In this document: positions 20,986-64,000 of the stretch, one piece after another
Layout of the letters: the number at the start of each line of letters is the position of its first letter
Numbering within the stretch: position 1 is the stretch's first letter
Assembly (NCBI RefSeq): GCF_900090285.1
Contig: NZ_LT607754.1
Span: 4,242,001 to 4,306,000, forward strand
Reading direction: 5' to 3'
Source: Micromonospora inositola
GTDB taxonomy: Bacteria; Actinomycetota; Actinomycetes; Mycobacteriales; Micromonosporaceae
Length of the DNA stretch: 64,000 bases
Notes under the pieces: generated by a model
The model's input: only the letters and a program-made list of their open reading frames with translations
What the model was told of the DNA's origin: nothing
The model's database searches: none
Program-made: the position numbers and the translations under genes

Positions 20986-21390
20986 GACACCGGCGGAGCT
21001 GCGTCGGTCGCCGGGCTGTCACAGGCCACCGACGCCGTCAGGAGTAGGACCACCACCGCTGCTCGGAGAGCTCTCGGCGCACCCGCAGTATCGACCGTCG
21101 GCGAACCGATCTGCCCCGGACAAGATCGCCGGCCCGACGATCTCCGTCACGATCGCGGTGCCGTCGGCGCGGCCATCCCCGGATGCCACCCTTTGATGCT
21201 CGGCACCCATTCGTGCCGCAGCCAGCGTCCGCATCTCAGCCGGAGAAGAGCCGCCCGCCCTCGACGGCCGGATCCCCCGGTCGAGACCGCGGCCCGATCC
21301 CCGCCCGGGACGGCGGCCCGAGGCAGCGTGAGATCGGCGTAACAGGTGATCAGCCAGCGCTACGGGCGGAGCCCGACGTACCGTGAGATC
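20986..21390. other. Intergenic stretch with the out-of-frame lipoprotein leader
   Basis: Apart from the leader-like segment on the minus strand at about 20990-21075, I see no gene. It must also hold the promoter of the SEC-C gene that begins near 21391. Confidence 0.35.
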
Positions 21391-22440
21391 GTGCCGACGA
21401 GAGATCTGATCACCAGCGCTGACCTCGACGAACTTCGCCGCTCGGCGCTCGGCACAGCCAATCCGCTCGGCGTCGCAACCGACCTGGCAGACGCGGTGGA
21501 GCAGGGCCGGCTGGCGGAGCCGGAGGACGCCGGGGACGCGCTGACCCTGGCCGCGGAGATCGCCGAGATCCGAGGGCGGCTGGACGCCGCCCTCCGGTAC
21601 GCGGACCGGGCCTTGGAGGCGTACCCGTCGGTAGAGGATGCCCGGGCCGGCTTCGCCCGGGCGCTGCGGGCCCGGATCCTGTTCCGGGCCGGCGGCCGGG
21701 AGGACGAGGCGATGGCGGAACTCACCGCGCTGCGCCAGCTCCTGATCGAGCAGCCCGAGGCCCCGGTGTACGTCAGCGCGGCACTGGACGCCGGCGATCT
21801 CTCGGTGATCGCCGAGGAGTGGCTGAGCGAAGCGGTCGACACCGTGCTCGGCAGGCGCGCCACGGCGGCCGGAGCACCCACTGAGGCCGTACCCGCCGCC
21901 GAGGCGACGGTGGAGGTCGGCCCTCCGGAGGCGCCCGGCGTCCTGTTCTTCCTGCTCCAACAGCGGCACCGGGTACGCCGGGACTTGAACCTGCCGCATG
22001 ATCGGCAGGACGATCTGGCGGACCGGCTGGAGGCTCAGCTCGTCCGCCGGGCGGAGCAGCGGCAGGGCACGGAGCCCGACCTGCTCTTCTGGCCCCGGGT
22101 CGAGTTCGACCGCCTGCTCGCCGAGCACGCCGAGCTGACCGAGGCGTACGGGCCGGACTGGGACGCGCACCGGGGCCGCCTGGAACGACACCTCGTCCAG
22201 CAGGCCAACACCGGTCGGACCGGGCTGAGCGTGGTCGGCGCATCGGTGGATGGGCTGAACGGCTACGCCAGCCGGCACAACGGGGATCCGACGGATCCGG
22301 AGATCCGCACCCGCTACGGGCGAGATCTGGCGACCCGGACCGGCGCGCAGATTTCCTGGCCGCCGGAGCGCAACGACGCCTGCTGGTGCGGCTCGGACCT
22401 CAAGTACAAGAAGTGCTGCCTGCCGCGCTCCCGTAGCTGA
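21391..22440 (+). CDS. SEC-C motif protein
   Basis: This 349-residue protein ends in a SEC-C zinc motif, CWCGSDLKYKKCCLPR, the C-x-C...C-C pattern also found at the SecA C-terminus. The body is alpha-helical with a TPR-like segment (LRYADRALEAYPSVEDARAGFARAL). GTG at 21391 is preferred over a start 45 bases upstream, since VPTRDLITSADLDELRRSA begins the conserved part; neither has a strong ribosome site. SEC-C proteins of this size are of unproven function, perhaps adaptors that bring partners to SecB or to metal-dependent complexes. It is a single gene. Confidence 0.75.
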   Translation: MPTRDLITSADLDELRRSALGTANPLGVATDLADAVEQGRLAEPEDAGDALTLAAEIAEIRGRLDAALRYADRALEAYPSVEDARAGFARALRARILFRAGGREDEAMAELTALRQLLIEQPEAPVYVSAALDAGDLSVIAEEWLSEAVDTVLGRRATAAGAPTEAVPAAEATVEVGPPEAPGVLFFLLQQRHRVRRDLNLPHDRQDDLADRLEAQLVRRAEQRQGTEPDLLFWPRVEFDRLLAEHAELTEAYGPDWDAHRGRLERHLVQQANTGRTGLSVVGASVDGLNGYASRHNGDPTDPEIRTRYGRDLATRTGAQISWPPERNDACWCGSDLKYKKCCLPRSRS

Positions 22441-22674
22441 CCGCCTCGCCAATCGCTGCTGGCGGCAGTCGGGCCAGGCCGGCCACGGCGAGCGCTCGCA
22501 GCGAAATGGGGTGGCCGCAGGATCGGGATCACGAGCGCACGCGGTCGCCGCGCCGCAGGGACGATCCGGCGATGGGGGGCTCGCGATGATCAGGTTATGC
22601 GCGGCATACATCGTCAATGCGGTCGTCGTTGGTACCCATCTGCCGCTGTCGGCTCGGCCTGGCATCGTAGAGGC

Positions 22675-22962
22675 ATGTGCAGGAACATTCGCGTGCTCCA
22701 CAACTTTGAACCGCCTGCGACCGACGATGAGATCGAGGCCGCCGCCATCCAATACGTGCGCAAGGTCAGCGGCACGACACGGCCGTCCGCGGCCAACGAG
22801 GAGGCGTTCGGCGAGGCGATCCGCGCTGTCACGGCGGCCACCCGGACCCTACTGGACAGCCTCGTGACCAAGGCACCTCTCCGTGACCGCGAGGTGGAGG
22901 CCGCGAAGGCCAAGGCGCGCGCGGCCGAACGGTACGGGCTTCGACCGGCGGCCTCCGGCTGA
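22675..22962 (+). CDS. DUF2277 protein
   Basis: The 95-residue sequence has the diagnostic start MCRNIRVLHNFEPPATDDEIEA and the central QYVRKVSG, hallmarks of DUF2277. The family is widespread in actinobacteria and proteobacteria and has no known role. ATG at 22675 is fixed by the conserved MCRNIR. The helical C-terminus is rich in Ala, Lys and Arg (AKAKARAAERYG). Confidence 0.85.
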   Translation: MCRNIRVLHNFEPPATDDEIEAAAIQYVRKVSGTTRPSAANEEAFGEAIRAVTAATRTLLDSLVTKAPLRDREVEAAKAKARAAERYGLRPAASG

Positions 22963-23090
22963 CAGCTCCCGATCTCACTGGCCACGCTCTGCTCTGGTCA
23001 GGGCTTCCTGCTCGGTGACCTCTTCGGCAGCCCCGAAGGTGTCGAGGAGGACTGGGCGGCGGCCTGCACATATTCCTGGTCAACGACCGG

Positions 23091-24968
23091 TCAGCCGTCG
23101 TAGCGGAGCCCGTGTCCGAAGGGGTAGAGGGCACCCGACCCGTTCGCATGGGGGATTGTGACGGGCAGTTTTCCGACGGGGTTGACCTCCCCGAACAACA
23201 CGCGGGTCAGTGACTCCATCGAGGCGGCCGTGTAGCCGTAGGTGGCAAGGTAGGTCGGTGCCTCCGTGAAGTACGAGATGTCGTAGGGATTGCGCATGCC
23301 GGACACGACGACCGGCTTGCCCGTCGCGAGCAGCGCCTTGACCAGGGCCTGCTGAGCGGCGGCCGACGCGGTGGGCAACCCCGTGATGGGATTGACACTG
23401 GCGGCGTTCATCGTCGACACCACCACAAGGTCGCTGTGCGCGGCGTCGGCGACCACCTGGTTGATCCTGGTCTGGCTGGGTGTCGTGCCCGTCTCGAGGA
23501 CGGTCACGGTCTGCCCACGTCGGCCGATCGCGTTGCCGAGCGTGGTCGTCGTCGTCACGCCCCAGCCGGTCACGAGAACCCTCTGCGGGTCGCGAGTGAG
23601 CGGAAGCACGTCGCTGTCGTTCTTGACGAGCGTCGTGGTGTGGTCCGTGATGAGTTGCTCGTCGCGGAGGTGGTCGGACGCGCCCACGACCTTGGCCGCC
23701 AGCTCGACGTTCACGAACGGATCCTTGAACAGCCCCCTCGTCATCTTCAGGCGCAGGATCCGGTAGACCGACTCGTCAAGGCGCCGCATGGAGATCTCAC
23801 CGCTGCCGACGGCGTCGAGCACCGCGGTGTAGGCGACGTCCATCTGCGGCGCCAGCACGAGCTGGTCGGCGCCTGCCTTGAACGCCTCGACCGGCGCGAC
23901 GTTCGGCGGGTACGTGCTTGTCGCCCCTTGCATGTCGAGGGCGTCGGTGACGATCAGCCCGTCGTAGCCCATCTCCTCGCGCAGCAGCCCGGTGAGGATG
24001 GGCTGCGACATCGTCGCCGGTGCGCCGCTGGGATCGACCGACCGGAGTACGACGTGTGCGGTCATGATCGTGTCGACGCCTTGGGCGATCGCGGCCCGGA
24101 ACGGCGGCAGGTCGATCGCCTCGAGCTGCTCGCGGGTGTGGGTGACCTCCGGCAGGCCGAAGTGGCTGTCCGTGGCGGTGTCGCCGTGCCCCGGGAAGTG
24201 CTTGGCAACCGTGGCCACGCCGCCGTCGTGGTAGCCGTTCACCTGGGCAGCCACCATGTTGGAGACCAATTCGGGGTCCTCGCCGACCGACCGTACGCCG
24301 ATGACCGGGTTGGCGGGGTTAACGTTGACGTCGGCGACCGGTGCGTAGTTCTGGTTGATCCCGACGGCCGCCAACTCGGTGCCGATCACCTCGGCCGAGC
24401 GGTGTGCGTCCGTCACCGATCGTCCCGCGCCGAGGGCCATGTTGCCGGGCATCGCCGTGGCCGGTGCGACGAGGCGGAAGACGACGGCGCCGCCCTCCTG
24501 GTCGGTGGAGATGAGCAGCGGGATCGGTTGCCGTTGGCTGAGGGCGGCCGTCTGCAGCCCGTTGGACAGGGTGGCGATCTGACGCGGGTCCTGCACGTTG
24601 TCGGGCCCGCGCCTGGAGTCGAAGTAGATGACCCCGCCCGGCTTGTACTTGTCGATGACCTGGGCCGGGGTGTCCACACCGTACAGCGCCCGGTTTCGAG
24701 CCGCCATCGTCGGAGACACTGTGCTGGCATCCTGGCCGTACACCTCGACGACGAACAGCTGCCCAACCTTCTCCTGCACCGTCATGTGCTGAAGCCTGCT
24801 GATGATCTTGCCACGGAGCGTCGCGTCGTCCGAGTAGCCGGGCCCACTACCATTCGCCGCACTGGCGGGGACCGCCCCTTCGGCCACCGCCGGCACTGCC
24901 GGAGACGACAGAAGCGCCCCAACCGAGATGACGGTGATGCAGACTCGCCGGCCGAACCGATGGCGCAT
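23091..24968 (-). CDS. Secreted GH3 beta-N-acetylhexosaminidase
   Basis: A 625-residue exported family 3 glycosidase. A signal peptide (RRVCITVISVGALLSSPAVPAVAEG) precedes the barrel. The NagZ-type catalytic loop KHFPGHGDTATDSH lies at residues 256-269 and the nucleophile Asp342 in VTDALDM. A C-terminal GH3 alpha/beta sandwich follows (about 430-625). The loop His/Asp pair identifies the N-acetylglucosaminidase branch, acting on chitin or peptidoglycan fragments outside the cell. GGAGG lies 7 bases before the ATG. Two tandem 16-bp repeats upstream (25001-25032) suggest an operator. Confidence 0.88.
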   Translation of the reverse strand: MRHRFGRRVCITVISVGALLSSPAVPAVAEGAVPASAANGSGPGYSDDATLRGKIISRLQHMTVQEKVGQLFVVEVYGQDASTVSPTMAARNRALYGVDTPAQVIDKYKPGGVIYFDSRRGPDNVQDPRQIATLSNGLQTAALSQRQPIPLLISTDQEGGAVVFRLVAPATAMPGNMALGAGRSVTDAHRSAEVIGTELAAVGINQNYAPVADVNVNPANPVIGVRSVGEDPELVSNMVAAQVNGYHDGGVATVAKHFPGHGDTATDSHFGLPEVTHTREQLEAIDLPPFRAAIAQGVDTIMTAHVVLRSVDPSGAPATMSQPILTGLLREEMGYDGLIVTDALDMQGATSTYPPNVAPVEAFKAGADQLVLAPQMDVAYTAVLDAVGSGEISMRRLDESVYRILRLKMTRGLFKDPFVNVELAAKVVGASDHLRDEQLITDHTTTLVKNDSDVLPLTRDPQRVLVTGWGVTTTTTLGNAIGRRGQTVTVLETGTTPSQTRINQVVADAAHSDLVVVSTMNAASVNPITGLPTASAAAQQALVKALLATGKPVVVSGMRNPYDISYFTEAPTYLATYGYTAASMESLTRVLFGEVNPVGKLPVTIPHANGSGALYPFGHGLRYDG

Positions 24969-25000
24969 GCCAACCTCCGGAGGGGAAGACCAGTGACCAA

Positions 25001-25032
25001 CCTAACTGTAAGCGGACCTAACTGTAAGCGGA
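25001..25032 (-). promoter_or_regulatory. Two tandem 16-bp repeats upstream of GH3 gene
   Basis: CCTAACTGTAAGCGGA occurs twice without spacing, 33-64 bases before the GH3 start. This is where a promoter and operator would be. Adjacent bases 24988-24999 read GACCAGTGACCA, reminiscent of half of a DasR site (ACTGGTCT), but the palindrome is incomplete. The rest of 24969-25350 holds no gene. Confidence 0.5.
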
Positions 25033-25350
25033 AGATTTGCTGTCGTCGTTGCATTCGCAGCCCCGGCCGTGGCCGGCTGGCCATTCTGGCTCAGGTTGCG
25101 CGCCCGGTAGACCTCGATCCTGTGGTTGGGATCGGCGTTCTTGGTGCTGTAACCAGGTCGCGTGAGCTGCTACGCGAGCGCACCGCCGAAGCTGTCCGCG
25201 CCGACCCCACGGTACGAGTTCGCTGGCTGTCGGATTACAGCGTGCGGCGGTGTCCGCGCCGTGGCCGCTACCCGAATTTCCGTGGAGTGTGGGCCGTCCT
25301 CGCGCTACCCCGTTGGCGAGGACGGCCGGTCGCGCGGTTACCCTGCGGCG

Positions 25351-25905
25351 ATGACGGTCGGCGAGGACGGGGAGCGGCTGGCGGTGTCGCTGGCTGACCG
25401 GCTCGACGCGCTCACCTTCACCGACCTGACCACAGACCAGGTCACCGCCCGGCTGATCGACGTGGTGGTCGACTGGGCGGGGGAGCGGGGCTGGCGGGTC
25501 TACCGGCGGGCGTCCAGCGTGCTTCCGCTGCCGCCGCCGATGTCCGCGCAGCAGTCGGTGCTCGACGTGGCCTGTGCCCGCCCGGACGGGCCGCCGGTCG
25601 TCGTCGAGGTCGACCACGGCACGCGCCGCCGTACTTTTGAGAAGTTGCTGGCCGAGGCCGACGCGGGGCGGATTCCGCTCTGGGTGCGTTGGGGTGCCGG
25701 CCGGTTGACTGCGCCGCCTCCGCCGATCCGGATGGTGACCTGCGAGGTGACCAGGCGGCCGGACCCGACTGGCCGAGGTCGGTTGCACAGCCGCTCGCCG
25801 CTAGCCGACAAGCTGCCACCGGCGCACTCCGCCGTGCGGGTCGGGGAGGTGGCCGCCGTCGAGCTGCCGCTGCCGCCGCCGAAGTTACCCGGCGCCCGGG
25901 CCTGA
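25351..25905 (+). CDS. Conserved actinobacterial protein of unknown function (possible nuclease-like fold)
   Basis: A 184-residue soluble protein. The central pattern VLDVACARPDGPPVVVEVDHG ... FEKLLAEADAGRIPLWVRWG has an acidic residue followed by E-V-D and a lysine, in the order seen in restriction-endonuclease-like folds (D ... ExK); that similarity is only suggestive. ATG at 25351 starts the conserved part and an upstream extension is not protein-like. No operon partners. Confidence 0.5.
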   Translation: MTVGEDGERLAVSLADRLDALTFTDLTTDQVTARLIDVVVDWAGERGWRVYRRASSVLPLPPPMSAQQSVLDVACARPDGPPVVVEVDHGTRRRTFEKLLAEADAGRIPLWVRWGAGRLTAPPPPIRMVTCEVTRRPDPTGRGRLHSRSPLADKLPPAHSAVRVGEVAAVELPLPPPKLPGARA

Positions 25906-26059
25906 GAAGGGGCACGGTCCAGTCGTAGGCGGCACGGCACTGTCCCTGCGATCATGACCGGCGGCCCTGCAGTGGCTTGACCATCAGCCAACGCCCGTCA
26001 TTTCGCGGCCACCGTTTACCAGTCGGTATGTTTCGGACTGCGGTTGTTCCCCGGGTTCG

Positions 26060-26104
26060 ACGGCTGACGGCGGCCGATGACTCTCATCGGCCGCCGTCAG
26101 CCGT
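26060..26104 (-). terminator. Very strong hairpin terminator
   Basis: A perfect 21-bp stem with a 3-base CTC loop, 5 bases past the stop of the M14 peptidase gene. No T run follows. Confidence 0.8.
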
Positions 26105-26109
26105 TGTTC

Positions 26110-29100
26110 TCACCGCAGCAGATACCCCATGGCCCTGCCCATTACCGAGTTCCGGGTGGCCACATCGGTGATCCCCTCGAAGCCGAAGCCGAAGTAGAGC
26201 GTGGCATCGGTGGCGACCACGGCGCCTTCGGGGAAGCCCGCCGCCGTCGTTCGGACGAAGTTGTTAGTGTTCGACGCGCTGCCCGCCGGCGGTCCGGTTG
26301 CCGCCCAGCCGCCGAGCCCGTCCTCGAACGATGTGCTGCCCTCGCCCGTGGACACCTCGACGTCGTCGACGAACACGCCCAGGCCCTGCGTGGTCCAGTC
26401 GCTCACGTACGCGATCGAGACCTCGACCTGACTGCCTGCGAACTGCCCTAGGTCGACCCGCCACTGCTGCCAGCCACCGGAGACACCGGAGGCGGCGTGC
26501 CATGCGCCGGTCGTACCGGTCGGGCTGCACGTGCCGTCGGTGTTGAGCGTCTGGTAGTGGTCGAGGTGCGGGTGCAGGTCGCGCCAGCCGGCCGGGCACG
26601 ACTGCCCGGTCTCCTGGTTGGTATGGCCGTTGAGGTCGGGCAACGTCGTCCAGTCGTTCTGTCCGGCCGTGTGGGCCTCGACCAGCACGTGGTCCCACTC
26701 CGCCTCCGTGTTGTACGACGTCCAGAAGGACAACGTGGCACCCCCGGCCGGAACGGTGAGCGTCCGGGTAAGCCGCTTGTACGAGACGTCGGCGATCTGC
26801 GAGTAGGCGTAGTTGTCACCGGTGTGCGGGTCGAAGGGCCCACCGGGCCGGTCGTACCTGGCCGCCGGCCAACTGCGGAACTGCGGGAAGTCGGCGACCG
26901 GAAGCAGCCCGCTCGTGGTCAGGAACGAGGCGCTGTGATCCTGGTTGGTGGCGCTGCCGGGGCCGTTGAAGCCCCAGTCGAGGCCGTTGAACGGGGTGTC
27001 GATGCCGGCCACGTCGTACAGCCCGCCGGCCGGGTTCGCACCGGCGTCCTCGTTGATGGCCCCGGCGCCGAACCAGTATTCGATCACGTCGTTGAGGCCG
27101 TCGCCCGAGCCGCCGAGCGCGCGGCACCGTCGCAGGATGGCCGGGTCGGAGCACATCTTGTTCTCGAACGGGTCGTAACGCTGGGTGCCGTGGCCCGGCG
27201 CGTACTGGTGACCGGCGTACTTGCCGGTGTAGAGCACGCGGCCGTCTTCGTTGAGATAGTCACGCACCTGCAGCAATTCCTCCATCGCCAGCCGGGAGGC
27301 ATTGCCCGCACCCCAGCCTGGCTCGCGCGTGATGATGTCGTTGCCCGTGTACCAGATGACCGCGTCGTAGTGGCTGAGTACGCCTAGCGCGTCCGGCGCG
27401 GTACGCCCTCGAGCGTCGACGTCGTACACGTCGTACCCGATCCCGTTCGCCGCCAGGGCGTCGGTGTAGTACGACAGGAAGTGCGGGCCGGGGGTCTGGG
27501 CGGGCGAGGCGCCCGTGTAGTCCTCGGCCGCCATGACCAGCACGCGGTTTGTGCTCTCGGCGAGCGCCCGGTAGGTGAACGAGTCGCTGGCGGCCCCGCC
27601 ACCCTCGAACCACACCTTCACCGTGTCGCCCGGGTTGGTGCCGGTCACCTGTCCGCGCATGACCCGGTAGTAGTTCGAGTTCCCGACTCCGTAGCGCTGT
27701 CCACCGGTCCACTCCGACGTAGGGGCGCTGTGCACCGTACCGCGGTTGATCTGGAACTTGACGGTCACGGCGCCGAGGCTGCGCTTGGCGAGCACCCGTA
27801 CCTCCTGCGGGTCGCCGTAGGAGACGTCGAAGGTGAAGTCGAACATCGCCAGGGCGCCGTTCTCCGGGTCGACCTCGGTCTGGTCGAGGTAGAACGGCTT
27901 GACCGTCATGCCGACCGGCGACACCGGGTCCGCCGGGCGGGTGGCCGAGCCGGCCAGCGCGAGATCGAACGGGAGGGTCTTCTCGAACTCGGCCTGGATC
28001 AGTGCCTCGTCATCCGGGAAGACGAAGCCACAGCCGGGGCACCCCTCGTTCAGTTCCGGAGTGAAGGCGACCGTGCCGTTGGCCGTGTCGGCGTAGTCGG
28101 TCGTCTCGCCGTTGGTCACCTACAGCTCATCCGAGCTGATGCCGGGGTCGAAGCCCGGGATCGCCGGGCGGGCGTCGGTGCCGGCGAGCGCGGTGTAGAT
28201 CGGGTTGTCGGCCTCGGGCGTGCCGATCTGCCAGCCCTGCGGGTAGAGGATGTACGGCCCGAAGGAGTGGAAGTTGGACTGGAACTTGGGCTTGATCCGG
28301 TCGAGCAGGCCCTGCATCGCCTGGGTCTCGGGCTCGGAGGCGGGGCTCGGCCCGCGGTAGGTCTCCCCGGCGGAGATGGACGAGGAGCCCTCCTCGTCGT
28401 ACTTGAAGCGCGAGTTGAAGTTGCGGTTCGGGTCGACACCGTCGCCGACGGCGATTTGACCGTCGTTGTTGTTGTCGCGCAGGTTCTTGCGCCACAGCCG
28501 TTCGTTGTCGAACGTGTACTGGTATCCGTCCGGGTTGGCGGAGATGACGAACCACAGCTCGGTGCTCTTCAGCAGGTCCTTGATGTCCTTGTCGTTGGCC
28601 CGCCAGCGGTCGATGTACCACCTCAGCAGGCGACGGTTGACCTCGACGCTGATCCACTCGCGGGCGTGCTGGTTCGAGCTGTACAGCACGGCCGGGCGCG
28701 AGGCGTCGGGAACCTCCTTGGCCGCTTGCGTCACCTTAAGCGCGATGAGCTCGCGTCCCTGGTACGTGTGCCCGAGCACCTCAAGCTTGACCAGCTGCGG
28801 GTTCCGCTTCGCGAGGTCGTACAGCTCGTCGCGGATGCCGCCCGGCTCGTCCCAGGACCGCCACACGTTGTATCCGCTGGCCGCCTGCTCGGCGGCGAGC
28901 TGGCGCTGGGTCTTGCCGTCCTTGTTGCGCTTGGGCGCGACGCGTAGGCCTCGGTCGCCGAGCCGGGCACGCTCGGCGTCGCTCAGGACCACGTCCAACT
29001 CGACGTCTTCCCCGACGAGCCGGGTGGCCGCGACGTCGAGACCCTCCTGGACGAGCTGAGCGGCCTGCGCGGGCTCGGCCCGCACGGTGTACATGTCGAG

Positions 29101-29190
29101 CTCAGCCTGCGACGGCTGTGCCGCCGAGGGTGCGACGAGCCCGAAGATCATCAGGAGTAACGCTGACAGGAACACGGTGGAGCGCTTCAT
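26110..29190 (-). pseudogene. Large secreted M14 zinc carboxypeptidase interrupted by an in-frame TAG
   Basis: The intact gene would encode 1026 residues. ATG at 29190 follows GGAGG; a signal peptide is at residues 1-24. The M14 domain has zinc ligands His175 and Glu178 (NQHAREWIS), the third ligand His308 (FHSFG), and the catalytic Glu379 (FTPELNE). A single TAG at codon 357 (28120-28122) splits the frame: the reading phase and homology continue immediately on both sides, and no base is gained or lost. Counting back 22 residues from Glu379, the TAG falls where carboxypeptidase A has Tyr248. The C-terminal ~600 residues carry M6/immune-inhibitor-like and lectin-like strand domains. A product stopped at 357 would lack the catalytic Glu, so the gene is scored as broken unless the TAG is read through. 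Confidence 0.85.
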
Positions 29191-29701
29191 TGCGACCCTC
29201 CAACCCCCCCTGGTGGGCACAGCCGCTCGGGGAGTGGCCATAGACGCGGGTAGTCGTCTCGCCAGCATGCGAAAAGGCTGGACATCGATGAATCCTCCGT
29301 CCGGACGGACTCCGATGCGCCGGTAAGCTGCCGAGGGGCCGATTGGAGGTCTGGCTGAGGTGGCGGTTGCCGAACGTGGGCCGCCGTCGTGCCGGTGTCG
29401 GCCGCGGCCGGCACGAATCCCTGGCGGAGCAGCCAGCCGGCGATGTCCGATACAGCGTCGCTGGGGCCGAAGGTCAGTCGGGTCAGGTCGATCGTAAACT
29501 GGCCCGCGCTGGTCGCTCCTCGCCCAGGCCGCGGTCCGTGCGGTACCGCACCCGGTGGGCGGTGACCGTCGGGAAGGCCAGCCCCCATACCGTTTCGCGG
29601 CGCAGCAGTCCGCGCGTACCACGACGGCATCGACGGGGTGCCGGCCGTCGAGTACGTTACCGGCGAGTCGATCTGGCGATGGTGGACGGCGGGGAGGCCG
29701 C
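29191..29701. other. Intergenic stretch between divergent M14 and flavoprotein genes
   Basis: It must hold both promoters. A minus-strand segment near 29350-29510 is protein-like (QFTIDLTRLTFGPSDAVSDIAGWLLRQGF) but has no start or recognised family; it may be the residue of a lost gene. Confidence 0.35.
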
Positions 29702-31315
29702 ATGGCCGGGAAACACCGTTCGTGGTGGGGCTGGGGGCACGTCGAGGACGCAGTGACCGGCGCGGAGGCCACGTCGTTGGCCGACCGGGTGCGTGCCCTG
29801 CTGCCCGGCGTCGACCTGACCGAGCATGTCGCGCCGCCGGTGGCCGAACTCGGCCTGCGCCCGCCGCGGGTCGATCCGCCGACGTCACTCGCCCGGCTGT
29901 GCTCGACGGACCCGGCCGACCGGGCGGCGCACACCCACGGCAAGGCGTTCCGGGACGTCGTCCGCAACCTGCAGGGGGACGTCCACGACCCGCCGGACCT
30001 GGTGGTCCGGCCGGCGACCGAGCAGGACGTCGTCGACGTCCTGGACTGGTGCGCGGGCCGGGACATCGCGGTGATCCCCTACGGCGGCGGCTCGTCAGTG
30101 GTCGGCGGAGTCGAGCCGCGGCTGGACGACGCGTATCCCGCGGCGGTCAGTCTCGACCTCGGGCGCCTCGACCGGGTGCTGGAGGTGGACCCGACCAGCC
30201 GGGCGGCCCGCATCCAGGCCGGCGTGTTCGGCCCGGCGCTGGAGGACCAGCTCCGGCGGCACGACCTCACGTTGCGGCACTTCCCGCAGTCGTTCGAGTT
30301 CTCCACCCTGGGCGGCTGGTTGGCCACCCGCGCCGGCGGTCACTACGCCACCGTCCTAACCCACATCGACGACCTGGTGGAGTCGTTGCGGGTGGTCACC
30401 CCGGCGGGCACCAGCCAGTCGCGCCGGCTGCCCGGCTCCGGCGCCGGGCCGTCCCCGGATCGGCTGTTCCTCGGCTCGGAGGGCGTGCTCGGCGTCATCA
30501 CCGAGGCGTGGATGCGGCTGCAGGACCGGCCGCGCTGGCGGGCAGGCGCCTCGGTGCACTTCACCGACTACGACGGGGCGGTCGCCGCCACCCGGGCCAT
30601 CGCCCAGTCCGCGCTGCACCCGAGCAACTGCCGGCTGCTCGACCCGGCGGAGGCGCTCCTCAACGCCGGCGCCGCCACCACCGGCGGCGTGCTCGTCCTG
30701 GGATTCGAGTCCGCCGACCATCCGGTCACACCATGGCTGGACCGCGCCGTCGAGCTGTGCCGCGACCACGGGGGAACCCTGCCGGAGCCGCCCCGCGACG
30801 ACGACTCGTCCGGCCCACGGCAGCGGACCGCCGCAGCCGACGCCTGGCGGTCAGCGTTCCTGCGGATGCCGTACCAGCGCGACGCGCTCGCCGCCCGGTC
30901 GATGATCGTGGAGACGTTCGAGACCGCCTGCACCTGGGACCGATTCCCCGCCTTGCGCGCCGCCGTGCTCGACGTGGCCGGCGACGCGCTCCGCGCCGTC
31001 GCCGCGACCGGTGTGGTCACCTGCCGCTTCACCCATGTCTACCCGGACGGCCCCGCCCCCTACTTCGGCGTGTACGCCACCGGCCGCTGGGGCGCCACCC
31101 TCGCCCAGTGGGACCAGATCAAGCATGCCGTCTCCGACGCGCTGCTCGCCGCCGGCGGCACCATCACCCACCACCACGCCGTCGGCCGCGACCACCGACC
31201 GTGGTACGACCGGCAGCGTCCGGATCCGGTCGCGCGCGCATTGCGCGCCGCCAAGAGCGCGCTCGACCCGTCCTGGATCCTCAACCCCGGCGTCCTTGTC
31301 GATCCCGCCGGCTGA
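29702..31315 (+). CDS. FAD-binding oxidoreductase of the VAO / alkyl-DHAP synthase type
   Basis: A 537-residue flavoprotein. ATG at 29702 has GGGGAGG just before it. The VAO-type FAD domain includes DLVVRPATEQDVVDVLDWC, the pyrophosphate loop PYGGGSSVVGGVEP, the FEFSTLGGWLATRAGGHYAT motif and GSEGVLGVITEAWMRLQ, all diagnostic of alkyldihydroxyacetone-phosphate synthase relatives. The cap domain (about 290-510) ends with DPSWILNPGVL. Actinobacterial members are generally assigned to lipid or hydroxyacid oxidation; the substrate here is unknown. The reading frame runs in phase toward a truncated HxlR gene. Confidence 0.85.
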   Translation: MAGKHRSWWGWGHVEDAVTGAEATSLADRVRALLPGVDLTEHVAPPVAELGLRPPRVDPPTSLARLCSTDPADRAAHTHGKAFRDVVRNLQGDVHDPPDLVVRPATEQDVVDVLDWCAGRDIAVIPYGGGSSVVGGVEPRLDDAYPAAVSLDLGRLDRVLEVDPTSRAARIQAGVFGPALEDQLRRHDLTLRHFPQSFEFSTLGGWLATRAGGHYATVLTHIDDLVESLRVVTPAGTSQSRRLPGSGAGPSPDRLFLGSEGVLGVITEAWMRLQDRPRWRAGASVHFTDYDGAVAATRAIAQSALHPSNCRLLDPAEALLNAGAATTGGVLVLGFESADHPVTPWLDRAVELCRDHGGTLPEPPRDDDSSGPRQRTAAADAWRSAFLRMPYQRDALAARSMIVETFETACTWDRFPALRAAVLDVAGDALRAVAATGVVTCRFTHVYPDGPAPYFGVYATGRWGATLAQWDQIKHAVSDALLAAGGTITHHHAVGRDHRPWYDRQRPDPVARALRAAKSALDPSWILNPGVLVDPAG

Positions 31316-31339
31316 CCTTGGGGCCGGCCCCCGGACGAC

Positions 31340-31435
31340 CGGTGGATCACCTGCACCTGGTCGCCGTACGGGAACCGGTCCAGGGCCTGGTGGAGCCGGT
31401 GGTCCATCAGCCCGCAGTACGAAGACGCCGACTTC
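31340..31435 (-). pseudogene. Remnant of a DsbA/FrnE-like oxidoreductase N-terminus
   Basis: A 25-30 residue stretch (MDHRLHQALDRFPYGDQVQVIHRS) resembles the second segment of DsbA-family FrnE proteins, where a basic helix with R-x-x-x-A-L-x-x-F-P is followed by V-x-V-x-W-R-S-F. The CxxC and the rest of the gene are missing. It lies divergently against the truncated HxlR regulator, the usual arrangement of such pairs. The match is short, so confidence is modest. Confidence 0.3.
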
Positions 31436-31816
31436 ATCCGCGAGGTCCTGGACCTTGTCGGCGACAAGTGGAGCGTTTTGATCATCGGTACGCTCGCCGA
31501 TGGCCCCATCCGCTACTCGGACCTGGGCGACGCGATCCCCGGCATCTCTCAGCGCATGCTCACGCTGACCTTGAAGCACCTGCAGCGCACTGGGCTCGTC
31601 ACCCGGACCTCCTACCCCGAAGTCCCGCCCCGCGTCGAGTACGCCCTCACCGAACTCGGCACCTCGCTCCTGTCCACCGTCCTGGCCCTGGCGGCCTGGT
31701 CGTCCGACCACCATGCCGAAATTCGCCGCCATCAGACCGAGTACGACAACGTCACCGCAACCCAGGAGCGCGGACTGGCGACGCGTCATGGACGGTCTCA
31801 CCGCCGTCGACAGTGA
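31415..31816 (+). pseudogene. HxlR-family regulator lacking a normal start
   Basis: The frame encodes a full HxlR winged helix: DFIREVLDLVGDKWSVLIIGTLADGPIRYSDL, then ISQRMLTLTLKHLQRTGLV and the wing YPEVPPRVEYALTELGTSLL. It is in phase with, and follows, the flavoprotein stop at 31315, but between that stop and the DNA-binding domain there is no ATG or GTG; the first usable codon is a TTG at 31478, inside the domain. The N-terminus, with its usual cysteine, has been replaced. It probably regulated the divergent oxidoreductase whose trace lies at 31340-31435. Expression as a working repressor is doubtful. Confidence 0.55.
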
Positions 31817-32109
31817 GCTGCCTGCGCAGCGACTCCCGATGGGCCACAGGCTCGACGGCCCATTGGCTCGGATCGCCTTCCGCGCTCAGGGCCGAACAGA
31901 TGTGCATGGTGTGCGCCAGGTTGAGCCGGGGCGGACACTGGCGACGGCCGGCGCCGATCGTTGCGCACGGCGGCGAGGACGCGGCGGGGCCGGGCATGTT
32001 GTGGCTTGCTGGTCCCAGGGTTTGGTGATGCCATCCGGGACGCCGCGACTTCACGGCCGGAGTACCTCGTAAGCGCATGTGCGCCGGCCTGCTCCGACGG
32101 CGGCGACCG
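31817..32109. other. Intergenic stretch
   Basis: No gene is supported. Short shadow frames only. Confidence 0.3.
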
Positions 32110-32730
32110 TCAGGAGGTGACCGACGTCGCCGTACCTGTGGGGCTTGCCGGTGGCGACGCGGGGTCGGTGGACGCGGAGCCGCTGGGCGCAGGGCTGCTC
32201 GGCCCCGGCGTGCCGCCCGACGGAGTCGGACCAGGTGTGGACGGGGCCGGGGTGGGGCTGCCGGACGGGCTGGGAGTGGCGGTGGGCGGCGGCAACGAGG
32301 GGGCGCCGGTCGATCCGGGCGTCGGACGCACCGTCGGCTTCGCGGTCGGTGGCCTGGTGGCCGGGCTCGTGGCCGTCGGCTTCGGGGCGCCGGTCGCCGA
32401 GCGCGGAGTCGCCGTGTCGGCGGTCGGCTTGGGCAGCGACTCGGTCTGGGCCACCGGAACGGTCGGTGGGGCGACGTCGGCGGGAGACGGACCGGAGACG
32501 ACGTGCGCACTGGGCGTGGCCGGGAGATCCGGCGTGGGAGTGGCCGGTGCCGGCCGCAGGTCCGGCGCGCCGGCGGCCCGCGCCGACACGGCGTCGCCGG
32601 AGTCAGCCTCGGCGTCTCCGATCAGCGCGAAGCCGAGACCCGCTCCGCCGACCAGCAGGGCGGCGAGGGCTCCGGTCGCGACGGGCAGCGCGGCCGAACG
32701 GGGTGGGCGGGGACGCCGGTGGGCGGGCAA
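32110..32730 (-). CDS. Pro/Thr/Ser-rich membrane-anchored protein
   Basis: This 206-residue protein has an Arg-rich N-terminus, one transmembrane helix (about residues 14-36, ALPVATGALAALLVGGAGLGF) and a long, low-complexity extracellular tail rich in Pro, Ser, Thr and Ala, as in cell-wall-spanning stalks. TTG at 32730 is taken as the start because AGGAG lies 6 bases before it; no ATG is near. No catalytic domain is visible. Composition is highly biased, so the exact boundaries are approximate. Confidence 0.55.
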   Translation of the reverse strand: MPAHRRPRPPRSAALPVATGALAALLVGGAGLGFALIGDAEADSGDAVSARAAGAPDLRPAPATPTPDLPATPSAHVVSGPSPADVAPPTVPVAQTESLPKPTADTATPRSATGAPKPTATSPATRPPTAKPTVRPTPGSTGAPSLPPPTATPSPSGSPTPAPSTPGPTPSGGTPGPSSPAPSGSASTDPASPPASPTGTATSVTS

Positions 32731-32887
32731 CGAACGCTCCTGACCTACTGGGACGACTGAGCTGGCGCGACAACGCCGGCCCCGACCCTGCCGCCCGCCA
32801 TGCGCGACCGCCAATGGCCGGACGGCGGAGGTGACCGGGATCACCACCAATCAGGCATGCGGCGGCCGAAGCAGTCACCAGACCGAC

Positions 32888-33532
32888 ATGTCGGACGAGC
32901 GCGTCGATGCGGCGGAGATCAACGCCCGGGGGTGCGAGGTCGACCACGTCACGGTCTACCGATGGGTGCAGCGGTTCACCCCGCTGCTGGCCGGCGCCGC
33001 CCGCTTCTGCCGGCACCCACCAGGCGACAGGTGGCACGTTGATGAGACGTACGTCAAGGTGAAGGGGGTGTGGCGCTGCGTGTACCGGGCGGTCGACCAG
33101 TACGGGCAGGTCATCGACGTGCCCGCCGCGACGCGGGCGCGGCCCGGCGGTTCTTCCGGCGAGCGTTGTCGGCGTTGAGGGTGACGCCCACCGAGGTGGT
33201 CACCGACGCCGCCGCGGTCTATCGCGCCGTGCTCGACGAGCTGATCCCACAGGCGTGGCACCACGTCGAGCAGTACGCGAACAACCCGATCGAGGCTGAT
33301 CACAGCCAGTTCAGACAGCGGTTGAGACCGATGCGCGGGGCTACGAACGGACAAGGCAGCACAAGTGATCGTCGCCGGACACATGTTCATGCAGAACCTC
33401 CGACGCGGACACTACGAATTCGCCGTCGATGCCTCGCCGGCTTCGCGGGTGGCCGCGGCGTTCACCGAACTCGCCCCAAGCGATCTGACCGAGGACCCCG
33501 GGACGGGTTCAACACGTCCGCCGATCCGATAG
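32888..33532 (+). pseudogene. IS6-family transposase remnant with two frameshifts
   Basis: The conserved core is DHVTVYRWVQRFTPLL, then DRWHVDETYVKVKG (first Asp), then VVTDAAAVYRAVLDELIP (second Asp) and YANNPIEADHSQ (Glu), identifying IS6. The N-terminal helix-turn-helix is missing. Frames change near 33120, where a few codons are also lost, and near 33345; the last frame ends FMQNLRRGHYEFAVDASPASRVAAAFTELA and stops at 33532. The copy is dead. Two more IS6 traces occur at 54182-54713 and 56299-56363. Confidence 0.8.
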
Positions 33533-33638
33533 CGCCCATGCCGAGATCCGGGTGTCAAGTGTCCAATGAGGAAAGCGCGGCGACCCGCGTCGCTGCGCGG
33601 CGTTGATCGCAGATCACCGGCCCGCTGGCCATCATGGG

Positions 33639-34235
33639 TCACCGGCCCCCGGCTTGTTGGAACGCGCGCAGCCGTTCGCCGCGCAGGCCGACGCAGTCGT
33701 GTGCCCAGAAGACGTCGGAGTAGACGAACGCGCCGTGCATCCAGTCCTCGTACGCTGACAGCCGGGCCACTTGGAACGCGCCTGGCGCGTTCCGCAGCGT
33801 GGGCGGTCGGAAGCCCAGCCGCTCGGCGTCGTCGAAGCCCCGTGCACCGTAGTAGCCGGGCGCACCCTCCAAGAACACCAGCGGCACGTCCTGGGCGTCG
33901 GCGGCGGCCAGGGCGTGACCGATCAGCGCGGTACCGATCCCAGATCGCTGGAACTCCGGCAGGACGCCCAGCGGCGACAGCGAGTACACGGCCACCAAAC
34001 GCTCCGGCGCATCCAGCCGGCATCCGCTGAGCATCACATGCCCGACGACCCGATCGTCTTCGGCGTCGTTGACGGTGGCCACCAGCGACACCGGCGCCAA
34101 CGGCGCCGGGGCGGTCCGCAGCTCGTCAACCAGGCCCGGCACTCGGTCCGGATGGCCGAACGCGCGAGCGTGAACCTCCCGTACCGCCGCGTGATCGTGC
34201 TCCTGCTCCAGCCGGTACCGCACGTCATGTCCCAT
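33639..34235 (-). CDS. GNAT-family N-acetyltransferase
   Basis: A 198-residue GNAT protein. The acetyl-CoA loop is VYSLSPLGVLPEFQRSGIGTALIGHAL (motif A, Q/R-x-x-G-x-G/A), and the fold continues with LVFLEGAPGYYGARGFDDAERLGF (motif B). ATG at 34235 is chosen over a GTG 3 bases earlier. Members of this branch (YhbS-like) acetylate small amines or unknown metabolites. The acceptor cannot be told here. Single gene. Confidence 0.85.
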   Translation of the reverse strand: MGHDVRYRLEQEHDHAAVREVHARAFGHPDRVPGLVDELRTAPAPLAPVSLVATVNDAEDDRVVGHVMLSGCRLDAPERLVAVYSLSPLGVLPEFQRSGIGTALIGHALAAADAQDVPLVFLEGAPGYYGARGFDDAERLGFRPPTLRNAPGAFQVARLSAYEDWMHGAFVYSDVFWAHDCVGLRGERLRAFQQAGGR

Positions 34236-35145
34236 CACGGCCGCAAGGTTAGCCGCAAGGCCACGCTATTTCGAGGAGCTTCTGTCCGATCTCAAGGATC
34301 ATGGCGGGAGGCTGATCGTGCTCGCAGTCCACATCCGGATCTGCCGCTGACAAAGCGCGGCGCCCGCGAGTGCGCTCGTCACTGTCCGTACCCACCGTGG
34401 GGGTCGCTCGCTTCGTGTCGCGGGGCGAACGGCCCTGCGTTAGGCAGACTGTCCCGGCTGACCGTGTGGGTCCATTGCGGGGCCGGGATTGGGGGAGCAC
34501 GTTGGGAGCAGTTGGGTGCACTGAACGCCGTTGAACTGAGCTCAACGGCACCGAACGGCGCTCAACGGCATACGCCCCGACCTGGCGTGTTGCGTTTTCG
34601 CAGGCAAAGTGGGTGCAGCGTCCTGCTTCACACGGAGTGCTCGGCCGTATTGAGCAGCGGTCGACAGCATTCTATGTCGCCTGGCAGGGGAGTATCCGCA
34701 GGTCAAAGCGGTAAGGACCTTGCCGGTGATCATGGCTTGCAGGTGGGTGCAGATTGGGTGCAGGCCGGCGAAGTGGTCACCGCGCCCGAAGTGCTTAACG
34801 AAGCCGGGCCGCGCGGATTGCTGGGACGTGCGGTGATGTGGGCGAGCGGGCCGGCGTGACCTCCCAGCGAACACCGAAGAGGTCAGGCTTCGCTGCTCCA
34901 CGCCTGGCCGGTGCCGGCTGTCGTATGGAGTCTGACGTGCGCCGCGGCGACGACCCGGCGGGTGTACGTCGGGCCTTCGGCGAATGCGCAGCACGGGATC
35001 GTGGGCTTTGTCGGCGTACTGCCCGCCCGCCGGGCCGCGGGTACGTCGACGACATGCTGGCTGGGACGACTGCACTGCTGGCCACCATGGGGACACGGCG
35101 GATCGTGGACGACGGGAGTCGGGCGGTCCGGGCCATTGAAGATCG
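34236..35145. other. Long gene-free stretch with clustered short repeats
   Basis: No gene is supported in these ~900 bases. It contains four copies of TGGGTGCA on the plus strand (34514, 34611, 34744, 34755), an inverted repeat GCCGTTGA-N7-TCAACGGC at 34528-34550, and a direct repeat GCTCAACGGC at 34541 and 34561. It also contains one copy of the dispersed GGATCTGCCGC motif (34337). The cluster could be a recombinase attachment region, but no integrase gene is adjacent. Confidence 0.4.
34337..34347 (+). repeat. Dispersed intergenic motif GGATCTGCCGC (copy a)
   Basis: Preceded by CATCC and followed by TGACAAAGCGCGGC. See the other copies at 42835, 44386, 46693, 47111 and 50202. Confidence 0.55.
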
Positions 35146-62234: not shown

Positions 62235-62404
62235 CCGACTTCGACACAGGCCCTGGCCGTACGACGGTCCCGGCGACAGTAGTCGCGACCCTCGCGCCCC
62301 CGCCGGGCCTCGCGAGCTCCAATCAGGACGGATGCTATTTCCGGCGGGCGCAGCGTCAGCTCGCGGTCGCCCGACACGCTCACCGGAGGGAGTCCTGGCA
62401 GGGC

Positions 62405-63169
62405 TCACAGCCAGGGTGGTGGGCCCTCGAAGGCGAGGGCGTGCACGTCGAACAGGACTGCCGCCTCCACGCCCAGCGCCGGCCCGCCCTGGCGGGCCGC
62501 CCAGGTAAGGAACGGCCCGGGTTCGGGGCCGGCCACGCCCAGGCCGTTGGTCTACTCAGCGTGAGCGGCTAGCGAGGCGATACCGCGCTGCAACGGCTCG
62601 CCGGTGACGTCCACGCCGTGCGTGGGGCGCTCGGCGCCGGCGAAGCAGACGTAGCGCACGCCGCCCCAGGGTGGTAGCCCCTCGTCCACCAGTTCTGGGA
62701 AGATCCACCGGTTGCCCGCGTCGCGGGCGGCGTCCAGCGTAGCCAGCCCCACCGCCCGGTGGTCGGCCTGGTTGGTCATGCCGCCCACCATGCGGACGGT
62801 GAAGGCGCCCGAGACGATGACGTCGGGCCGGTGCCGGCGGATCGCCCGCACGATGTCGCGGCGCAGGTCTGAACCGTACTCGACGACCCCGTCGCGGTGG
62901 TCGAGGAACTCCACGACGTCCACGCCGACCTCCCGGGCCCCGGCGCGCTGCTCCTCCTCGCGCAACGGCGCGGCCTGGTCCGGGTGCATGGCGTCGATTC
63001 CTGCCTCGCCCCGGGTGGCCAGCAGGTAGGTAACCTGTTTGCCCTGTGCGGTCCAGCGGGCGATCGCCGAGGCCGCGCCGTACTCGATGTCGTCAGGGTG
63101 TGCGGCCACCGCAAGGCAGCGCTCCCAGTCCTCCGGCAGTGCCGGTAGAAGCTCATCCACGGTCCACAC
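62405..63169 (-). pseudogene. PIG-L-family deacetylase interrupted by an in-frame TAG
   Basis: The metal-binding motif is AVAAHPDDIEYGAASAIARW (A-H-P-D-D) at about residues 19-38, with MTNQADHRAVG giving the later His ligand. A TAG at 62552-62554 (codon 206) ends the open frame after SLAAHAE, but the same frame continues [24 protein letters not shown] and reaches a natural stop at 62405, restoring the typical family length of about 254 residues. The codon probably replaced TAC or TAT (Tyr). The truncated protein keeps the metal site but loses ~49 residues, so activity is uncertain. It is divergent from the HSL-type esterase at 63246. Confidence 0.75.
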
Positions 63170-63245
63170 CGTAGCCGCCTCTCCGCCGATCCGTCACCGC
63201 CGTGTCGGCAACGTAGCCATCCGTCGAGCAGGTGATAATGAGGGG

Positions 63246-64000
63246 GTGGACCCCAGCCGGCTGCACCCGCAGGCGCGGGCGGCGATGCAAGTCCAGCAGC
63301 GTGTCCCGCTCACCCGGGCGACCCTGCCGGCGGCACGGCTCAGCATGGTCCGGGCGACTCCGGCCGAGGTGGGCAGCGCACCGGCGATCCGGTCCGTGGT
63401 GACTTTCGACGCCGGCGGCGTGCCCGCCCGCCTCTACCGCGACGCCGATCACGACGCAATGCCGGTCGTCCTCTATGCGCACGGCGGCGGCTGGGTGATG
63501 GGCAGCGTGGACACCCACGACGGGCTGTGCCGGCACCTGGCGGCCGCGTCGGGCTGGGCCGTGCTCTCCGTGGACTACCGGCTCGCCCCCGAGTATCCGT
63601 ACCCGGCTGCGGTGGACGACATGACGCGCGCGCTCACCTGGCTGCGCGGGCCCGGGGCGGCTCGGCACGGCCTCGACCCGGGCCGGATAGCGGTGGCCGG
63701 TGACTCCGTGGGAGGGCACCTTGCGGCGGTGACCGCTCGGCGCGCCCGGGATGCGGGGATCCGTCTTGCGGGACAGATCCTCATCTGCCCGGTCATCGAC
63801 CCCGCGGCCGACTATCCGGCCCTGGACGAGTACGGCCTGGACCGGGAGGAGATGCGGTTCTTCTGGGACGCGTTCGCCCCACCCGGCGTGGACCGTACAC
63901 AGCCGGATCTGGACCCACTGCGGGCCGACCTCACCGGCCTGCCCCCCGCCGTGGTCATCACCGCCGAACTCGACCTGTTGTCCGCCGAGGGTGAACGGTA
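63246..64000 (+). CDS. HSL-type (hormone-sensitive lipase family) esterase, 3' partial
   Basis: The GTG at 63246 opens a frame that runs out of the window. The family HGGG oxyanion motif is YAHGGGWVMGS, and the nucleophile motif is GDSVGGHLAAV (Ser in G-D-S-x-G-G). The acidic residue is probably in ITAELDLLSAEGE at the window edge; the catalytic His lies beyond it. Length so far is 251 of an expected ~310 residues. Divergent from the PIG-L gene across a 76-base gap. Likely a small-ester hydrolase. Confidence 0.8.
   Translation, partial: MDPSRLHPQARAAMQVQQRVPLTRATLPAARLSMVRATPAEVGSAPAIRSVVTFDAGGVPARLYRDADHDAMPVVLYAHGGGWVMGSVDTHDGLCRHLAAASGWAVLSVDYRLAPEYPYPAAVDDMTRALTWLRGPGAARHGLDPGRIAVAGDSVGGHLAAVTARRARDAGIRLAGQILICPVIDPAADYPALDEYGLDREEMRFFWDAFAPPGVDRTQPDLDPLRADLTGLPPAVVITAELDLLSAEGER

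Follow-up and report, generated by a model that had tools for sequence, protein, structure and literature searches.

Carboxypeptidase T (CPT) of Thermoactinomyces vulgaris (family M14; PDB 1obr) serves as the reference for the active site considered here. Its zinc ligands and catalytic residue, as given in one account of the enzyme (PMC6937156), are His69, Glu72, His204, and Glu277, and the same account identifies Tyr255 as the counterpart of Tyr248 in carboxypeptidase A (CPA). P0002, an intact orthologue of the gene described below from Micromonospora sp. NPDC005806, aligns with CPT over its residues 122-404 (E 6e-32), and every one of the zinc ligands finds its match there, as do Tyr255 and Glu277. 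In contrast, the copy in Micromonospora inositola stops at the Tyr255 position, without Glu277 and everything that follows, while its full frame is ~600 residues longer than CPT and includes an InhA-like MAM domain. Both Pfam domains are common to the M14/InhA-MAM carboxypeptidases of Micromonospora sp. NPDC005806, Lentzea, Saccharothrix, Actinophytocola, Agromyces, and Jiangella, which are similar in length (905-1052 residues) and, among the 120 homologues listed, 66-97% identical; these homologues are open, whereas the M. inositola copy carries an internal TAG. A further point of comparison is the survey of bacterial in-frame stops by Belinky et al. 2021 (PMC7918605). Its stops resemble the one in M. 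inositola in being single and in frame, in their low dN/dS, and in their apparently short persistence; however, its large set centered on stops common to at least two species, whereas the M. inositola stop was seen in one genome.

The locus lies within a 64,000-nucleotide stretch of M. inositola DNA (contig NZ_LT607754.1, positions 4,242,001 to 4,306,000), hereafter the window, to which coordinates refer unless another genome position is named. The reading favored here, at a probability of roughly 0.86, is that the locus represents an ordinary nonsense pseudogene and a fairly recent gene loss. In this scenario, one nonsense substitution would have cut the gene for a secreted CPT/CPA-type M14 zinc carboxypeptidase at the codon equivalent to Tyr248. 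Ribosomes would be expected to terminate once residue 356 has been added, leaving the catalytic Glu and the entire C-terminal part untranslated, and the 356-residue product should lack carboxypeptidase activity.

Gene architecture and the active-site codon

The interrupted gene, predicted to specify a secreted M14 carboxypeptidase whose C-terminal part includes an InhA-like MAM domain, occupies 26110..29190 on the minus strand, as delimited by translation, Pfam matches, and a colinear intact copy in another Micromonospora genome (G086). The frame opens with an ATG at 29190 and proceeds through 356 codons, a TAG, and 669 codons to a TGA at 26110-26112, such that the TAG at codon 357 (28120..28122, minus strand) is the sole internal stop among the 1026 codons that precede the TGA. 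The first part (356 codons; 28123..29190, minus strand) combines an N-terminus that, judged by eye, resembles a signal peptide with an M14 domain that includes the zinc ligands, and the M14 product is presumed to be secreted. The Peptidase_M14 domain (PF00246) spans residues 121-395 (28006..28830, minus strand), with the TAG inside it; the first part reaches profile position 210 of 286 and scores 184.7 bits alone, compared to 192.1 bits for the whole frame with an X at codon 357 (cut-off 21.6). The part after the stop (669 codons plus the TGA; 26110..28119, minus strand) begins with a GTG directly behind the TAG. Some 600 residues of the frame (~600) lie beyond the M14 domain and contain the InhA-like MAM domain (PF20773), whose best stretch covers residues 788-879 (26554..26829, minus strand). 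Just past the TGA, a repeat search located an inverted repeat (26060..26104) whose 21-base arms match perfectly and are separated by 3 bases; its terminator-like form suggests that the whole unit ends there.

The original prediction had placed the zinc ligands His175, Glu178, and His308 before the TAG and the catalytic Glu379 after it, with the TAG itself on the Tyr248 equivalent, and these assignments were borne out. The HxxE...H zinc ligands of the M14 family are all encoded before the TAG: by homology with CPT His69, Glu72, and His204, they are His175 (28666..28668), Glu178 (28657..28659), and His308 (28267..28269), while Glu379 (28054..28056), the catalytic Glu by homology with CPT Glu277, lies past the stop (all on the minus strand). 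All four are matched in the 1obr alignment, and each is invariant in 120 of 120 homologues listed. The spacing of 22 residues claimed between the TAG and Glu379 also agrees with that in CPT, since position 357 of P0002 pairs with Tyr255 and position 379 with Glu277, and both pairs are 22 residues apart. Alignment of the joined protein with M14 homologues gave Tyr at site 357 in 120 of 120 proteins, a count that represents the best 120 of 3919 proteins with E ≤ 0.001 and leaves more distant relatives outside it. At the DNA level (tblastn), Tyr was present at 47 of the 47 loci covering the site, out of 48 tried, the locus left out (L003) being a distant M14 paralogue whose alignment lacks position 357; some of these loci come from organisms already represented among the 120 proteins, and the two Tyr counts are not independent. 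With TAG as codon 357, the M14 copy of M. inositola is devoid of the Tyr248-type residue, and the catalytic Glu, 22 codons past the TAG, is outside the translated product and present in the conceptual full frame only.

The coincidence between the stop and the active-site Tyr needs no special cause; stops at other catalytic codons, too, would have drawn remark. The intact G086 copy offers 301 one-step routes to a stop, including 86 from TAC codons, 2 of which are at codon 357, which puts the chance of a stop at exactly this codon at ~0.7% (2/301) for a match noticed after the fact. Recoding is a tempting explanation when a stop coincides with so well-known an active-site residue, but a stop seen in one genome only does not call for it.

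Orthologues, paralogues, and distribution of the stop

The G086 copy is 97% identical to that of M. inositola (97.2% over 3081 bases), carries Tyr at 357, and aligns colinearly along its full length (3081 of 3081 bases) with neither gaps nor an internal stop, which confirms the earlier proposal that the two halves in one phase form one gene. An internal stop in an otherwise colinear gene that has an intact orthologue is one mark of a nonsense pseudogene, and this is the situation found in M. inositola. Among 160 genus genomes, 72 have a match at E ≤ 1e-200, and the stop is present in only 1 of the 73 matches that they contain, namely the M. inositola copy. The gene itself is restricted to 2 of the 160 genomes searched for the genus, M. 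inositola and G086, and these are also the only 2 of 354 family genomes in which it was detected at E ≤ 1e-280; genus matches other than G086 are of a paralogous type, ~48-52% identical. Since the gene is uninterrupted in the nearest relative that carries it, the interruption looks like an ordinary, fairly recent loss. The original prediction had likewise favored a probably recent nonsense mutation, in agreement with a stop limited to the M. inositola genome and an intact copy in the sole genus orthologue found. The locus is ordinary in kind, being a nonsense-broken exoenzyme gene, and offers a clean case of a recently broken gene of this sort whose sister copy is intact; its main value is cautionary.

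An open paralogue, 51% identical, is located in the same M. inositola genome at 6187620-6190661 and could cover the loss of the broken gene. Relatives at 56-73% identity were identified at 17 loci in Lentzea, Saccharothrix, Actinophytocola, Haloechinothrix, Agromyces, Jiangella, and Thermoleophilia. The patchy distribution of the gene, which is present in 2 of 354 family genomes yet also in Lentzea and relatives, suggests that it may have been acquired by horizontal transfer. As a side observation on the paralogous type, match coordinates suggest that the ~50%-identical M14 paralogue is distributed across two reading frames in each of two genus genomes (G105 and G149), and only C-terminal pieces of it are among the matches listed for a third (G074); breakage of this M14 enzyme type may therefore be recurrent in the genus.

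A truncation shared with other organisms was considered and rejected on the basis of the best 120 of 2623 relatives of the first part with E ≤ 0.001: nine of them terminate in the interval from position 340 to 375, but not one does so at 356. In 61 of the 120 listed, the C-terminus lies no more than 8 residues (≤8) from the alignment end, and many such short first-part relatives are probably contig fragments.

Age of the lesion and alternative readings

Comparison with G086 over 3081 bases yielded a dS of 0.071 and a dN of 0.0145. The dN/dS ratio was 0.298 before the stop (11 nonsynonymous and 12 synonymous changes) and 0.177 after it (22 and 41, respectively; Fisher p 0.32), both being pairwise values that include time before the stop arose. 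Dating of the lesion by the two ratios was discarded, given that they do not differ significantly. No second inactivating lesion was found in the 1026-codon frame. Low dN/dS on both sides of the stop is consistent with a young lesion, and would fit a base-call error or a still-used gene equally well.

A three-way comparison of M. inositola, G086, and P0002 (codon 357 omitted, site 247 unresolved) assigned 15 private amino-acid changes to the M. inositola lineage, 15 to G086, and 13 to P0002, indicating that the M. inositola lineage is not faster than the others. After the stop, 6 of 10 changes in this lineage were to residues present in at most 2 of 119 homologues, as compared to 3 of 20 in the G086 and P0002 lineages (p 0.030 by Fisher's test and 0.038 by a permutation test on log ratios), a skew that involves small numbers and a cut-off picked after looking. 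One of these six falls at Gly649, a site with Gly in 119 of 119 others. Before the stop, rare-residue changes amounted to 2 of 5 in this lineage versus 3 of 8 in the others, without any skew. The simplest reading of these comparisons is that the stop arose late on the M. inositola branch.

A base-call or assembly error, with the gene intact in the living strain, would explain a single substitution accompanied by no other lesion and by low downstream dN/dS, as well as a stop seen in no second genome, either among the genus genomes (one per species) or in the protein searches (best 120 each). However, the assembly consists of one contig and is 100% complete and 0.21% contaminated, and the weak rare-residue skew after the stop is unexpected in an intact gene, making such an error unlikely. 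An actual split of the gene is scarcely credible. Under this alternative, a truncated first protein would be followed by a restart at the GTG directly after the TAG, served by the Shine-Dalgarno-like GGATGAG located 6 bases ahead of the GTG, to produce a separate C-terminal protein. Identical flanking bases are nevertheless found in the intact G086 gene, and the GGATGAG/GTG context therefore did not arise with the stop; moreover, the second product would have neither a signal peptide nor zinc ligands.

Functional read-through, whereby enough ribosomes would decode through the TAG to yield a certain amount of full-length enzyme while the stop throttles expression, is compatible with the low downstream dN/dS versus G086 (0.177). 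Belinky et al. 2021 (PMC7918605) likewise argue that a bacterial gene with an in-frame stop is not necessarily a pseudogene, as dN/dS stays below 1 for many such stops. However, the pairwise ratio covers time before the stop arose, and the stop is not conserved, its site carrying Tyr in G086 and in every homologue examined and a stop being present in 1 of the 73 strong genus matches. The M. inositola genome also encodes release factor RF1, detected above its profile cut-off. A search for a suppressor tRNA found no CUA anticodon in 55 tRNA matches (Rfam, E ≤ 0.001; each inspected with ARAGORN, 49 loci), by a procedure that could miss a very divergent tRNA. RF1 and the tRNA set agree with a normal genetic code. 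Finally, the 83 nt from the stop onward have no unusual RNA fold (z -1.58, with 16 of 200 shuffled sequences folding equally well). Functional read-through is considered very unlikely on this evidence, and programmed UAG read-through was rejected as the main reading on the grounds that the stop is private, the tRNA survey revealed no CUA anticodon, RF1 is present, and the sequence after the stop forms no strong RNA structure. As a side observation from the tRNA survey, a tRNA array (Trp, Glu, Gly, Arg, Gln) is located at G000:C1:4593157-4594974 and includes a second tRNA-Trp.

The original prediction that a read-through product would be a full enzyme stands only as a conditional statement: it holds if read-through takes place, for which neither a CUA-anticodon tRNA nor a lack of RF1 was found. 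Near-cognate read-through would not always put Tyr at UAG. A variant in which the stop at the mobile substrate-binding tyrosine is tolerated, because leaky UAG decoding would yield small amounts of complete enzyme (frequently carrying Tyr at 357) and the amber codon would act as an expression throttle on a secreted protease, is regarded as extremely unlikely. The sequence bears no sign of dedicated read-through, as distinct from ordinary background read-through. Should full-length protein nevertheless be found, the locus would offer a naturally occurring case in which to test amber read-through in a high-GC actinobacterium.

Genomic neighborhood

When the whole window was compared with 19 kb of G086 around its copy, positions 26040-29352 matched at 96.9%. 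In G086 another colinear block follows after 57 bases, and its counterpart in the window is 62318-64000. Two blocks that are neighbors in G086 are thus separated by ~33 kb in M. inositola (29353-62317), a stretch that would represent either an insertion in M. inositola or a deletion in G086. The flanks of the gene gave partial matches only, elsewhere in G086, the longest being 89% over ~1.9 kb for 21000-26030 and 71% over ~1.5 kb for 29360-34360; the other G086 flank, compared with the M. inositola genome, had its best matches (72-73%) elsewhere as well. Within the ~33-kb stretch there is also an IS240-type DDE transposase whose sequence is divided between two frames (32831-33606). Because ~33 kb parts blocks that adjoin in G086, the flanks match elsewhere, and a split transposase is present, the M14 gene can be described as lying in rearranged surroundings, and a neighborhood of this kind would fit dispensability of the gene. 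DNA related to the IS240-type transposase occurs at several other places in the M. inositola genome and in G086.
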